Of a DNA stretch of 60,398 bases, positions 11,307 through 57,129 are shown in pieces. Position 1 is the first letter of the stretch, and every line of letters starts with the position of its first letter. This DNA is from an uncultured Lachnospiraceae bacterium (lineage in GTDB: Bacteria > Bacillota > Clostridia > Lachnospirales > Lachnospiraceae): NCBI GenBank assembly GCA_900316625.1, contig ONDO01000017.1, positions 1 through 60,398 on the forward strand, given 5' to 3'. The translations under genes were made by a program, and so were the position numbers. The notes under the pieces are model-generated. The model was not told the DNA's origin and did no database searches. It saw nothing but the letters and a program-made list of their open reading frames with translations.

Positions 11307-11335
11307 TTGACATCAGGCAAAATACATAATATAAT
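11307..11335 (+). promoter_or_regulatory. Strong sigma-A promoter of rplJ-rplL
   Basis: TTGACA (11307-11312), a 17-base spacer and TATAAT (11330-11335): an exact consensus promoter directly behind the rplA stop codon. It allows rplJL expression separate from rplKA. Confidence 0.93.
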
Positions 11336-11341
11336 GTAGAA

Positions 11342-11460
11342 CGCAAATGCCGAAGACAGCAGGTGTCGCAAGACGTAACGCATGCTACCTGCCGAGGGAT
11401 GAGTGAACATTAATGAAATGTTAACCTCTCTGTCTACGGACGGAGAGGTTTTTCTTATCT
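11342..11460 (+). ncRNA. L10 leader (rplJ 5' UTR with attenuator)
   Basis: The roughly 160-base leader of rplJ has several paired segments (for example GCAGGT near 11360 with ACCTGC near 11391) and ends in a terminator-like hairpin AACCTCTC (11423-11430)/GAGAGGTT (11443-11450) plus T run, still upstream of the gene. Position, size and the terminator fit the known L10 leader RNA, where the L10-(L12)n complex binds and promotes premature termination. Calling it Rfam L10_leader is by context; no covariance search was done. Confidence 0.75.
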
Positions 11461-11504
11461 CAATTCGCATTTGGTAACCAAAATACGATAAGGAGGTAAA
11501 ATTC

Positions 11505-38195: not shown

Positions 38196-38221
38196 TCGGA
38201 TTACAATCGTATATCGTAGAA

Positions 38222-38256
38222 GAAGGCATCTCACCTGGCTGGGGATGCCTTTTTGT
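38222..38256 (+). terminator. Terminator of the tetR operon
   Basis: AAGGCATC (38223-38230) pairs with GATGCCTT (from 38244), followed by TTTT. It lies 27 bases after the last stop codon. Confidence 0.85.
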
Positions 38257-38280
38257 TTGGAAGAGGGAAAAGGACAAGAA

Positions 38281-38344
38281 AAACCTCCGGACGAATCCGG
38301 AGGTGAAGATTTTGGGGAGTGCCAGGAGAATCGCTTCTCCTGGC
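38281..38344. other. Two perfect tandem hairpins in the gap before mbl
   Basis: CCTCCGGA-CGAA-TCCGGAGG (38285-38304) and GCCAGGAGAA-TCGC-TTCTCCTGGC (38321-38344) are perfect stems 16 bases apart. The first is preceded by AAAAA, so on the minus strand it resembles a terminator, yet no minus-strand gene lies upstream of it. The second has no T run on either strand. The rest of the 38196-38649 gap is AT-rich with no gene seen. Confidence 0.6.
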
Positions 38345-38400
38345 TGAGTTATGAAAATTATATTAGCCTGTCAGCTAGTACAGTAAAGACTATAGGGTAA

Positions 38401-38422
38401 AATTGTGAACAAATTGTGAACA
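38401..38422. promoter_or_regulatory. Two-unit 11-bp direct repeat upstream of mbl (WalR-like box)
   Basis: Two exact copies of AATTGTGAACA stand in tandem, giving TGTGAA-N5-TGTGAA. This matches the spacing of OmpR-family tandem sites such as WalR (TGTWAH-N5-TGTWAH), with G at the fourth position. The reverse complement matches the repeats upstream of htrA (55489-55505). Confidence 0.55.
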
Positions 38423-38541
38423 ACCCATAAAAAGATAATTAAGAATTACTGTATTTTAGGGCATTTGAGGAACATTTAGATGCTCGGAAGCTGAATTCTT
38501 CGCGGGGGCACAGAAAATGGGCATCCGATGACGAAAAGGTG

Positions 38542-38569
38542 TTGAATTTGATACTTAAATGGATATAAT
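38542..38569 (+). promoter_or_regulatory. Promoter of mbl
   Basis: TTGAAT (38542-38547), a 16-base spacer and TATAAT (38564-38569), 80 bases before the gene. Confidence 0.72.
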
Positions 38570-38649
38570 ATATCTACAGTGCGTCCTTGTGTGGTTTTTC
38601 GAGTGAAAGACCAATTTTGTAGGAGAATGCATCGGAAAGGAGCCTCGCT

Positions 38650-39648
38650 ATGGTAGCGACCGATATCGGAATTGACCTTGGAACTGCTAGTATCCTGGTC
38701 TATGTAAAAGGAAAAGGCGTGGTACTGAAAGAACCCTCAGTTGTAGCTTTCGACCACGATACGAATAAAATCAGAGCAATTGGTGAAGAAGCACGTCTTA
38801 TGCTTGGACGTACTCCTGGTAACATTGTTGCAGTCCGCCCCCTTCGACAGGGTGTTATCTCTGACTACACGGTGACAGAGAAGATGATCAAGTACTTCAT
38901 CCAGAAGGCGATTGGTAAGAAGTCTTACCGCAAGCCCAGAATCTCTGTCTGTGTACCTTCCGGTGTAACGGAAGTTGAGAAGAGAGCGGTAGAAGATGCA
39001 ACCTATGCTGCAGGTGCACGTGAGGTATCCATTATCGAGGAGCCTATCGCAGCAGCTATCGGTGCCGGCATCGACATCTCCCGTCCCTGCGGTAACATGA
39101 TCGTTGATATCGGTGGTGGTACCGCTGATATCGCTGTTATCTCTCTTGGTGGATCTGTTGTTTCCACCTCTATTAAGATCGCAGGCGATGACTTCGATGA
39201 AGCTATCGTTCGTTATATGCGTAAGAAGCATAATATCCTGATCGGTGAACGTACCGCAGAAGATCTGAAGATCAAGATTGGTACCTGCTATCCCCTTCCG
39301 GAACCTATGACCATGGAGACTCGTGGTCGTAACCTGGTTACCGGCCTTCCTAAGACCATCGAGATCTCTTCTGAGGAACTCGAGGAAGCACTCCGTGAGC
39401 CGACTCTTCAGATTGTTGAAGCAGTTCACAGTGTTCTTGAGAAGACTCCTCCTGAACTGGCAGCCGATGTCGCTGAGCGCGGTATCGTTCTGACTGGTGG
39501 CGGTTCCCTTCTTCGTGGTCTGGAACAGCTGATGGAAGAGCGTACCGGAATCAATACCATGACTGCAGATGATCCTATGACCTGCGTTGCAATTGGTACC
39601 GGTAAGTACATCGAATTCTTAGCAAGTGATCACAAGTCGATCTCTTAA
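38650..39648 (+). CDS. mbl: MreB-family actin-like cell-shape protein (Mbl type)
   Basis: 332 residues. Actin-fold motifs include DIGIDLGTASILVYVKGKGV, the phosphate loop IVDIGGGTADIAVISLGG and VLTGGGSLLRGL. It polymerises under the membrane and guides wall synthesis. No mreC or mreD follows; a terminator and then flagellar rod genes do, the same order as mbl-flhO-flhP of Bacillus subtilis. That synteny is the reason for the Mbl name over MreB. RBS AAAGGAG. Confidence 0.88.
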   Translation: MVATDIGIDLGTASILVYVKGKGVVLKEPSVVAFDHDTNKIRAIGEEARLMLGRTPGNIVAVRPLRQGVISDYTVTEKMIKYFIQKAIGKKSYRKPRISVCVPSGVTEVEKRAVEDATYAAGAREVSIIEEPIAAAIGAGIDISRPCGNMIVDIGGGTADIAVISLGGSVVSTSIKIAGDDFDEAIVRYMRKKHNILIGERTAEDLKIKIGTCYPLPEPMTMETRGRNLVTGLPKTIEISSEELEEALREPTLQIVEAVHSVLEKTPPELAADVAERGIVLTGGGSLLRGLEQLMEERTGINTMTADDPMTCVAIGTGKYIEFLASDHKSIS

Positions 39649-55437: not shown

Positions 55438-55445
55438 TGACAATT

Positions 55446-55520
55446 TCACAGAAATGTCCACATTCCTTCACAAAATATATGGGTTTTGGTCACAATTTAG
55501 TCACAGCAGACACCTATACT
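55446..55520. promoter_or_regulatory. 11-bp-phased TCACA repeats and -10 of htrA
   Basis: TCACA units begin at 55446, 55468, 55490 and 55501, with a TCCACA at 55457: steps of 11 or 22 bases on one face of the helix. TATACT (55515-55520) is a likely -10 with no good -35, which the last two repeats overlap. On the minus strand they read TGTGAC-N5-TGTGAC. This is the format of OmpR-family activator sites (PhoP, WalR, CssR). Confidence 0.6.
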
Positions 55521-55575
55521 TCTCTTCAGAAATCAAGAAATGACAAGAAATCCTGATATGAAAGGAAGCGTACAT

Positions 55576-57129
55576 ATGAGTCTTTATGAACATGGATTTG
55601 ATGGCAGCTCGGATCAGGGCGGCCACGATATGAACAATCAGATGAATCAGAATGGTCAGATGAATCAGAATGCAGCCCAGAATGGATATGGTCAGAATGG
55701 CCAGCCAGGCTATGGACAAAGTACAGGCAGTGGCTATGGCCAGTCCAATCCCTACGGAAATCCTTACGGGAATCCGACTCCCCGGCAGCCCAAGCAGAAG
55801 AAACCGAGAAAGCAGCATCCTTTTGCGAAGAAGGTCGCAGGCGCTGCAGCAATCGCGCTGGTCGTTGGTGCCGTTGGTGGAGCAGCTTTCACCGGAACAT
55901 CTTATCTGGCAGGTAAGGCTCTTCCGAGTCAGCAGTCTGAAAGCAATCCATCCACAAGTGGAACGACCCTGGGCAGAGGCTCCGGAAATATCGATTCCAC
56001 AGCGGTCTCCAACGCAACCACAGTTACGGATGTATCTGATGTGGTCTCCAACGTAATGCCCGCCATCGTACAGGTAACCAATCTGTCCGTTGAGGAATAC
56101 CGCAGTCTGTTTGGTACCTACACCAAGCCCAGCCAGTCCGCAGGATCCGGCATTATTATCAGCCAGGATAGTGACTACATCTATATCGCAACCAATAATC
56201 ACGTCGTAGAGAATGCAACCACCCTTACCATCACCTTCGTGGATGGCAATGCAGTGACCGCAGAAGTACAGGGTACGGATCCTGAGACCGACCTCGGTGT
56301 CGTTAAGGTTCGCCTCAGCGATATCAGTTCCGAGACCATGTCAGCCATTAAGGTTGCAACCCTTGGATCTTCCGATAATCTCTCTGTCGGTGAATCTGCC
56401 GTTGTTATCGGTAATGCACTCGGCTATGGACAGTCCGTAACGACCGGTGTCATCAGTGGCCTGGACCGTGAAGTTGCCCTGCAAGGAGATGACGGAACGA
56501 TAATCAAGAATAAGCTGATTCAGACCGATGCGGCCGTTAACCCTGGTAACTCTGGTGGTGCCCTTCTGAATATGAATGGTGAAGTTGTCGGTATCGTATC
56601 TGCGAAGTATTCCAGCACTGAGGTTGAAGGCGTAGGTTACGCAATTCCGATCTCTTCCGCTTCTTCCATTATCCAGAGCCTGATGAAGGGTGAAGAAGTA
56701 AATCACGAAGATGAAGTTGCACAGACGGGTTCCGGCGCTTACCTTGGCATCTACGGAATGGATATCAACAGCGAATCCTCGATCGCTTACAATATTCCCG
56801 TAGGCGTCTACGTCACCCAGGCCATCGAAGGTGAAGCTGCCGATCAGGCAGGTATCCGCAAGGGTGATGTCATTACAGCCATCAATGATACTTCCGTATC
56901 TTCCATGAGTGCGCTCAAGAGTGTGCTCTCCGGCATGAACCCCGGAGACAGCGTCAAGCTGACCGTCTGCCAGGTGAACAAGGGCTATAAGCAGAGCCAG
57001 GTAGATGTTGTACTCGGCGAGGTGAAGGATGATGACAAGGCCCAGAACAGTCAGTCCGAGGAAGAGGAGACACCGGAAGAGCATGAGGAACAAGGTTTCC
57101 AGCAGATGCTTCCCACTCCCAGACAGTAA
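55576..57129 (+). CDS. htrA: HtrA/DegP-like membrane-anchored serine protease
   Basis: 517 residues. A cytoplasmic N-terminal region of about 75 residues is Gln/Asn/Gly/Met-rich (MNNQMNQNGQMNQNAAQNGY), then basic residues and one membrane helix (AIALVVGAVGGAAFTGTSYL, about 91-110). The trypsin-like domain has His209 (TNNHVVENA), Asp239 (PETDLGVV) and Ser326 (NPGNSGGAL). One PDZ domain follows (YVTQAIEGEAADQAGIRKGD), then an acidic tail. It degrades misfolded exported proteins. ATG 55576 follows AAGGAAG. Confidence 0.94.
   Translation: MSLYEHGFDGSSDQGGHDMNNQMNQNGQMNQNAAQNGYGQNGQPGYGQSTGSGYGQSNPYGNPYGNPTPRQPKQKKPRKQHPFAKKVAGAAAIALVVGAVGGAAFTGTSYLAGKALPSQQSESNPSTSGTTLGRGSGNIDSTAVSNATTVTDVSDVVSNVMPAIVQVTNLSVEEYRSLFGTYTKPSQSAGSGIIISQDSDYIYIATNNHVVENATTLTITFVDGNAVTAEVQGTDPETDLGVVKVRLSDISSETMSAIKVATLGSSDNLSVGESAVVIGNALGYGQSVTTGVISGLDREVALQGDDGTIIKNKLIQTDAAVNPGNSGGALLNMNGEVVGIVSAKYSSTEVEGVGYAIPISSASSIIQSLMKGEEVNHEDEVAQTGSGAYLGIYGMDINSESSIAYNIPVGVYVTQAIEGEAADQAGIRKGDVITAINDTSVSSMSALKSVLSGMNPGDSVKLTVCQVNKGYKQSQVDVVLGEVKDDDKAQNSQSEEEETPEEHEEQGFQQMLPTPRQ

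Follow-up and report, generated by a model that had tools for sequence, protein, structure and literature searches.

Two places in a Lachnospiraceae genome, one upstream of the surface protease gene htrA and the other beside the cell-shape gene mbl, carry matching TCACA repeats, raising the question of what these repeats control. The DNA analyzed here (the window) is a 60,398-nt stretch from an uncultured member of the Lachnospiraceae, a family of dominant gut bacteria. The original prediction read the repeats as sites at which one envelope-stress regulator acts on both genes. The comparisons described below indicate that the box formed by the repeats probably switches on htrA and an uncatalogued small RNA (sRNA) via one two-component system in this large gut-bacterial family.

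Repeats and promoter layout at htrA and mbl

The repeat units upstream of htrA are located where they had been predicted, with TCACA at 55446, 55468, 55490, and 55501 and TCCACA at 55457, and the spacing among all five units is a multiple of 11, as claimed. The four exact TCACA units within the 138 nt at 55438-55575 all fall in a single mod-11 phase, which was observed in 0 of 20,000 dinucleotide-preserving shuffles of the same region; at least four TCACA units in any phase were observed in 0.3% of these shuffles. The last two units form the promoter layout TCACA-N6-TCACA-N9-TATACT. The five-unit array was thus correct in its positions, whereas the promoter unit consists of the last two repeats only. 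A third half-site, lying further upstream (Table 1), is reflected in the profile of 37 htrA sites by C at -21 in 86% and A at -20 in 89%, and the units at 55446 and 55457 have no visible conservation in the profile of the relatives' htrA promoters. Transcription of htrA would start at about 55527. The longest htrA frame opens at 55540, and an alternative start at 55576, preceded by GAAAGGAAG, is favored because the start region is alike among the genus relatives. By eye, HtrA has an N-terminal hydrophobic segment.

The repeat on the mbl side, at about 38400-38422, is a perfect 11-nt tandem that reads TCACA-N6-TCACA-N9-TATAGT on the minus strand, the same promoter as that of htrA. Since the layout of half-sites and -10 element is readable on the minus strand only, this second promoter faces away from mbl. 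The identical promoter layout supports the earlier claim of one signal common to htrA and the 38401-38422 repeat, and the repeats at both places are confirmed as real, non-chance features.

Table 1. Positions of the features in the window
Feature	Positions	Strand	Evidence
Ribosomal protein L10 leader	11332-11463	+	Rfam RF00557, 76.6 bits
sRNA gene, ~103 nt	38279..38381	-	Fold, R1 match 38313-38381, covariation
sRNA intrinsic terminator, 9-bp stem then T-rich tail	38283..38304	-	Sequence
Second sRNA stem-loop (GCCAGGAGAA GCGA TTCTCCTGGC)	38321..38344	-	Fold and covariation
sRNA -10 element TATAGT, 9 nt past box	38389..38394	-	Genome scan; profile of 63 promoters
sRNA regulator box TCACAATTTGTTCACA	38404..38419	-	Same box as htrA
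mbl sigma-70 type promoter TTGAAT-N16-TATAAT, apart from box	38542..38569	+	Conserved in relatives
mbl (MreB/Mbl), divergent from sRNA	38650..39648	+	Pfam MreB_Mbl
Extra in-phase units TCACA 55446, TCCACA 55457	55446..55462	+	Sequence, shuffles
Third half-site, two helical turns (22 nt) upstream	55468..55472	+	Partly conserved in htrA promoters
htrA regulator box TCACA-N6-TCACA, half-sites 11 nt apart	55490..55505	+	Kept in 37/39 htrA loci
htrA -10 element TATACT, 9 nt past box	55515..55520	+	Sequence
htrA, trypsin-like serine protease with PDZ	55576..57129	+	Pfam Trypsin_2, PDZ

In the genome scanned (1.93 Mb, 83.65% complete), TCACA-N6-TCACA-N9-TATANT has exactly two perfect matches, which are the htrA and sRNA promoters. 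The genome scan for TGTGAH-N5-TGTGAH, proposed earlier as a check, returned six exact matches, two of them in the window, versus none in the reversed control. With up to three mismatches, the promoter pattern yielded mostly noise in this genome (52 matches versus 30 reversed), and the bare pattern at up to two mismatches exhibited no excess within the window (32 versus a chance mean of 38.7). The tandem boxes at C11:17355 and C15:71805 have no -10 element at the 9-nt position. At the former (G000:C11:17355-17371, L002), TTCACA-N5-TTCACA lies just 5' of a CIRCE-like heat-shock operator (TTAGCACTC...GTGCTAA), which suggests a link to heat-shock genes.

For htrA, the box at one mismatch or fewer, together with a -10 element at two mismatches or fewer, was found in 37 of 39 loci (30 family genera and nine genus genomes) versus 0.9% of 2340 shuffles. 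The genomes of the two boxless exceptions (G151 and G022) hold a second, boxed htrA, and the box is kept in all nine genus genomes. The gap between the box and the -10 element is 9 nt in 28 of the 30 family htrA loci (8-10 nt allowed).

A structured small RNA and other genes behind the box

The stretch behind the mbl-side promoter folds into three stem-loops (fold z -5.6) and contains no ATG, GTG, or TTG. The predicted RNA comprises, in order, a small 5' stem-loop, unpaired AAUUUUCAUAACUC, a covarying stem-loop, unpaired ACUCCCC, and the terminator. Among six genus copies, 6 of the 10 main-stem pairs are changed on both sides, and in 35 sequences all 10 pairs of the second stem-loop exhibit double-sided changes. 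Over these 35 copies, whose alignment was fitted to the covariance model and leans towards the structure, 16 of 18 pairs are double-changed, and the covariation was higher than in any of 500 shuffles or six slid controls. Sequence comparison thus shows the structure of the predicted sRNA. No match to Rfam 15 at the gathering score was found over the sRNA in the window or at 20 further loci, which excludes a known Rfam family; the best sub-threshold match in 38200-38660 was NsiR1 (16 bits, E 1.3). The family was not found in the open-licence literature, where papers without sequences or with other wording would escape, nor was a catalogue of Lachnospiraceae regulatory RNAs, a little-described group. 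The available part of a report on a C. phytofermentans ncRNA (PMC5171806) gave no link to the sRNA.

A DNA search found the sRNA in five of nine genus genomes, one of which has two copies, and diverged copies adjoining mbl in G001 and G006, missed by this search, were seen by eye. Of 299 family genomes, at least 39 contain the sRNA according to the covariance model R1 (E <= 0.001); this count is a lower bound because R1 derives from six sequences, all from a single genus, and the filters applied were strict. Scanning genome records with a sequence pattern yielded 84 sRNA stretches. Among the 80 listed (L080-L159), which were used for the shuffle and mbl-neighbor counts, nearly all come from records of Lachnospiraceae, its genera, Eubacterium, or Clostridiales/Eubacteriales, and L080 and L119 (Prevotellaceae, Bacteroidia records), which look like chance matches, were kept in the counts. 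The sRNA-bearing species include Roseburia hominis, R. inulinivorans, R. porci, Lachnotalea glycerini, and Acetitomaculum ruminis.

The box was found at one mismatch or fewer in 67 of all 84 sRNA copies and exactly in 46. For the first 80 copies, the corresponding numbers are 63 and 42, versus 0.7% of 1600 shuffles at one mismatch or fewer and none exact. The copies in R. inulinivorans and R. hominis are among those that carry the box. Thirteen of the 80 have no box at two mismatches or fewer, 11 of which are without mbl in the DNA covered, and some boxless copies visibly have other promoters. Two copies without the TCACA box, L017 (upstream of 1576, minus) and L019 (upstream of 422, minus), carry TTGCATGT followed by a TATA/ACAAG stretch near -35, which resembles a sugar-repressor operator by eye; these may represent the same RNA wired to another signal.

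Across 63 sRNA and 37 htrA promoters, all preselected at one mismatch or fewer, the half-sites are nearly invariant with an 11-nt period, and the -10 element is well conserved over the 63 sRNA promoters without having been selected for. Direct half-sites about one helical turn apart, at a fixed place just 5' of the -10 element, characterize sites of the OmpR/PhoB family, and the predicted OmpR-family type of site is supported by this comparison. The TCACA pattern at one mismatch or fewer gave 31 matches in 12 sRNA-positive genomes versus 4 in the reversed control, and WCACA-N6-WCACA-N9-TANANT gave 81 matches in 38 genomes versus 5. At the level of sequence, genome comparison shows this promoter architecture and its linkage to htrA and the sRNA, as well as to a regulator gene described below.

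The 81 matches comprise 32 at htrA, 7 at the sRNA, 12 at other terminator-ended non-coding stretches, 21 at protein genes, and 9 unassigned. The terminator test that defines the non-coding class is crude: L231, really a regulator leader, is counted among the 12, and several RNA-like stretches, with the same RNA motifs by eye, were left among the 9 unassigned. TTTTCAT occurs in 6 of the 12 (0.3 expected from shuffled letters), and a CTCC-like motif in 9 of the 12 versus 5.3 expected, a weak enrichment. In the folds of 14 stretches, hand-picked from the box-driven non-coding matches, TTTTCAT is entirely unpaired in 9 of its 14 copies and CTCC in 8 of its 15. The box is also found before these other sRNA-like stretches, which bear putative anti-start and anti-Shine-Dalgarno motifs.

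Five box-driven non-coding stretches (L183, L189, L192, L195, and L197) occur in the single genome G111, an expanded sRNA set. They begin with ATAACCATC(G/A)AAGGAA and carry TTTTTCATAATCTC and CTCCC-type motifs, and some lie near repetitive or masked sequence. A different type of box-driven RNA, with CUCCCCCCUCAUA and a strong terminator-like hairpin, is seen in L246, L262, and L271 from three genera. In two genera, genes for lipoproteins that are trigger-factor/foldase-like by eye (L248 and L276) have start codons 42 and 71 nt past the boxed -10 element, respectively, and are possible further envelope-quality members. The TwoAYGGAY motif (Rfam RF01731) lies near box-driven sRNA genes at L096 4443-4609 and L185 1666-1831 (minus), with no overlap.

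The targets of the sRNA were sought among 290 genes from ~0.46 Mb of this genome. The binding energies were alike for 32 secretory-type genes and 258 others (P 0.21 to 0.26), the overall binding of some shuffled seeds was stronger than that of the real one, and in 1 of 30 shuffles the two groups were told apart just as well. The ranking of the 290 genes yielded no clear target set, and secretory-protein genes as the preferred targets were dropped after this test.

The candidate regulator and rival readings

The regulator had been predicted to lie outside the window, and a candidate was found elsewhere in the genome, at G000:C32:2884-3576. This protein (P0008), one of six OmpR-family regulators in the genome, is RegX3/PhoB-like, with RegX3 as its closest PDB entry, and its gene adjoins that of a HAMP-HisKA-HATPase histidine kinase. 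At E <= 1e-70, a threshold of the analyst's choice, P0008 has a single match per genus in 29 of 30 genera, with identities of 61-72%. With one of the 29 loci left out because its upstream stretch was too short, the box was found upstream of 17 of 28 orthologs (0.16% of shuffles) when the second half-site was widened to WCAYA, a choice made after the sites had been seen; with the strict pattern, the count was 16 of 28 (0.09% of shuffles). The remaining 11 of the 28 have no box upstream. For the regulator in G271, which is 70% identical to P0008, the start codon lies 35 nt past the boxed -10 element. In its own genome, P0008 has no box upstream, and its gene closely trails others in a longer gene run. 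The specificity of P0008 is not readable from its residues, because those with which M. tuberculosis PhoP contacts TCACAGC are not conserved in it. A P0008-type RegX3/PhoB-like protein is the best candidate for the regulator, although its own copy here is boxless. A gene 3' of the candidate kinase gene (L355 5186-5950) encodes a lipoprotein by eye, without a Pfam match, and this lipoprotein might be a sensor partner.

The same regulon could instead be under another OmpR-family regulator, such as the WalR-like one on C13, the boxed regulator gene being merely a target; this reading is unlikely. The genome has six such regulators, of which the C32 type alone was traced across genera, and the boxed response regulators (L187, L231, L245, L257, and L283) include types other than P0008, each boxed in one or two genera (L187/L231, L245, and L283), so that the regulator assignment is not unique. 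However, 17 of 28 genera carry the box at their C32-type regulator, and none was found within 250 nt upstream of the remaining five regulator genes here; the C32 gene itself is likewise boxless. WalR itself had been suggested by the original prediction. WalR/YycF is an OmpR-family regulator that recognizes a direct repeat with an 11-nt period, TGTWAH-N5-TGTWAH, and thus shares this arrangement with the box, but requires A or T where the box has C/G: 98-100% of sites have G at position 4 (C when read from the opposite strand). The WalR-like regulator of this genome (P0005, C13), whose best model is YycF at 257 bits versus a cut-off of 340, differs from the one that is boxed in other genera. WalR was discarded as the regulator because of the half-site mismatch, and no box was found at the P0005 gene of this genome. 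No CiaR-named model was among the best 25 NCBIfam models for each regulator.

Less probable still is the reading in which htrA and mbl are both targets of a single OmpR-family regulator. The box lies between the sRNA and mbl in a conserved divergent layout: the sRNA is divergent beside mbl in 60 of 80 loci, and 58 of these 60 mbl-adjacent copies have the box at two mismatches or fewer, at a median of 211 nt from mbl (largest 2054). However, the half-sites, with their 9-nt gap to the -10 element, face the divergent sRNA, and mbl has its own sigma-70 promoter. The best match to this promoter has one mismatch in 41 of 61 loci and two mismatches in 18 of 61, versus 0.9% and 13.7% of shuffles, respectively, the match in the window taken alone being no better than shuffles. 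Moreover, boxed sRNA copies occur without mbl in the 1.5-3 kb upstream covered (L109, L114, and L129). Among the 14 sRNA loci without mbl for which at least 500 nt upstream is covered, these 3 are boxed and 11 are boxless; 5 more boxed loci have too little DNA to judge, and another locus has mbl elsewhere. In the genus, five mbl loci have both the sRNA and the box (two of them diverged, seen by eye), and G002 and G007 keep mbl and show neither; the locus of G008 is cut by a contig end, and the ortholog of G004 was not found. Loss of the repeats in relatives that keep htrA and mbl, named in advance as evidence against the original prediction, was therefore seen at mbl (G002 and G007) and not at htrA (9/9 boxed). 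The proposal of mbl as a direct second target was rejected as the main reading, since mbl has its own promoter and the box is missing in G002 and G007, where no adjoining sRNA was seen. Given the divergent placement of the sRNA next to mbl at 60 of the 80 loci, mbl may be affected secondarily.

A plus-strand mbl leader or small upstream ORF (GGAG-TT-ATG-AAAAATTATATTAGC) in place of the RNA is highly improbable and was rejected. Some copies do have a start codon and a short frame, but only 2 nt separate GGAG from ATG, and the A run that follows the start codon differs in length from copy to copy, so that no common frame is preserved. Moreover, it is the minus strand that carries both the promoter and the T-tailed terminator, and 14 copies (at least 500 nt upstream covered) are without mbl.

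Comparison with known systems and the proposed circuit

With these readings weighed, it is likely, as judged from the compared sequences, that the repeats form the site through which a conserved envelope-type stress regulon of the Lachnospiraceae is activated. In this regulon, the C32 regulator, as the best candidate, would act on htrA, on sRNAs, and often on its own gene. In the proposed mechanism, the regulator (G000:C32:2884-3576) would work with the neighboring histidine kinase, presumably in response to an envelope-type stress signal, and would bind, as an OmpR-family response regulator, the two TCACA half-sites one helical turn apart. The bound regulator would recruit RNA polymerase to the -10 element located 9 nt downstream, replacing a -35 element. 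It would thereby turn on htrA, so that damaged surface proteins are degraded or refolded, and one or more sRNAs of ~100 nt. We infer that the anti-start (UUUUCAUAA) and anti-Shine-Dalgarno (CUCCCC) segments of the sRNA would keep target mRNAs from initiating translation. The regulator would also act on its own gene in many genera.

One of the closest parallels is streptococcal CiaRH, a two-component system that activates htrA and the csRNAs via TTTAAG-N5-TTTAAG (PMC3091779). The csRNAs are typically stem-loop RNAs that end in a terminator and leave unpaired a segment complementary to the Shine-Dalgarno/AUG, and the various species have several types of them (PMC3091779; PMC8186281). The two systems share an 11-nt direct repeat before htrA and small RNA genes. 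htrA lies under the box here too (37/39), for a box of the WCACA type. In contrast, the Lachnospiraceae box is WCACA-N6-WCACA, with TTTAAG-N5-TTTAAG not found, and the host belongs to a different bacterial class. The window RNA and five genus copies are csRNA-like, being terminator-ended with an unpaired stretch complementary to the Shine-Dalgarno sequence and start codon, where complementarity was judged from the sequence and unpairedness from the fold. Unlike the csRNAs, the main Lachnospiraceae RNA has a conserved 5' stem-loop and usually adjoins mbl.

Two other systems share some features. M. tuberculosis PhoP, whose site is TCACAGC-N4-TCACAGC (PMC4832192), resembles the present system in its direct TCACA half-sites, 11-nt period, and OmpR/PhoB family, whereas the Lachnospiraceae box has no GC after TCACA and the targets differ. 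HtrA is a surface quality-control protease that is often under two-component control, and B. subtilis CssRS is likewise a two-component system that raises HtrA, under secretion stress, according to the available text (PMC12826053); in contrast to the Lachnospiraceae system, that portion of the source names no sRNA branch for CssRS.

In its logic, the proposed circuit matches the streptococcal one of CiaRH, htrA, and the csRNAs but uses a different box and different RNAs. An evenly balanced judgment is that the system is the independently assembled Lachnospiraceae counterpart of CiaRH/csRNA, family-wide and often self-regulating, which combines surface proteolysis by HtrA with split-antisense sRNAs directed at translation start sites (anti-SD and anti-AUG segments flanking a stem-loop), with the main sRNA gene kept beside mbl in much of the family and duplicates under other promoters.

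Overall, the analysis gives a candidate regulator, its putative binding site and core targets, and a structured sRNA family without an Rfam 15 match, which are testable in culturable genera such as Roseburia. If the proposed circuit is true, the pairing of HtrA with translation-blocking sRNAs would extend from streptococci to Clostridia, with a different site and different RNAs, suggesting a general Gram-positive solution to envelope protein stress.
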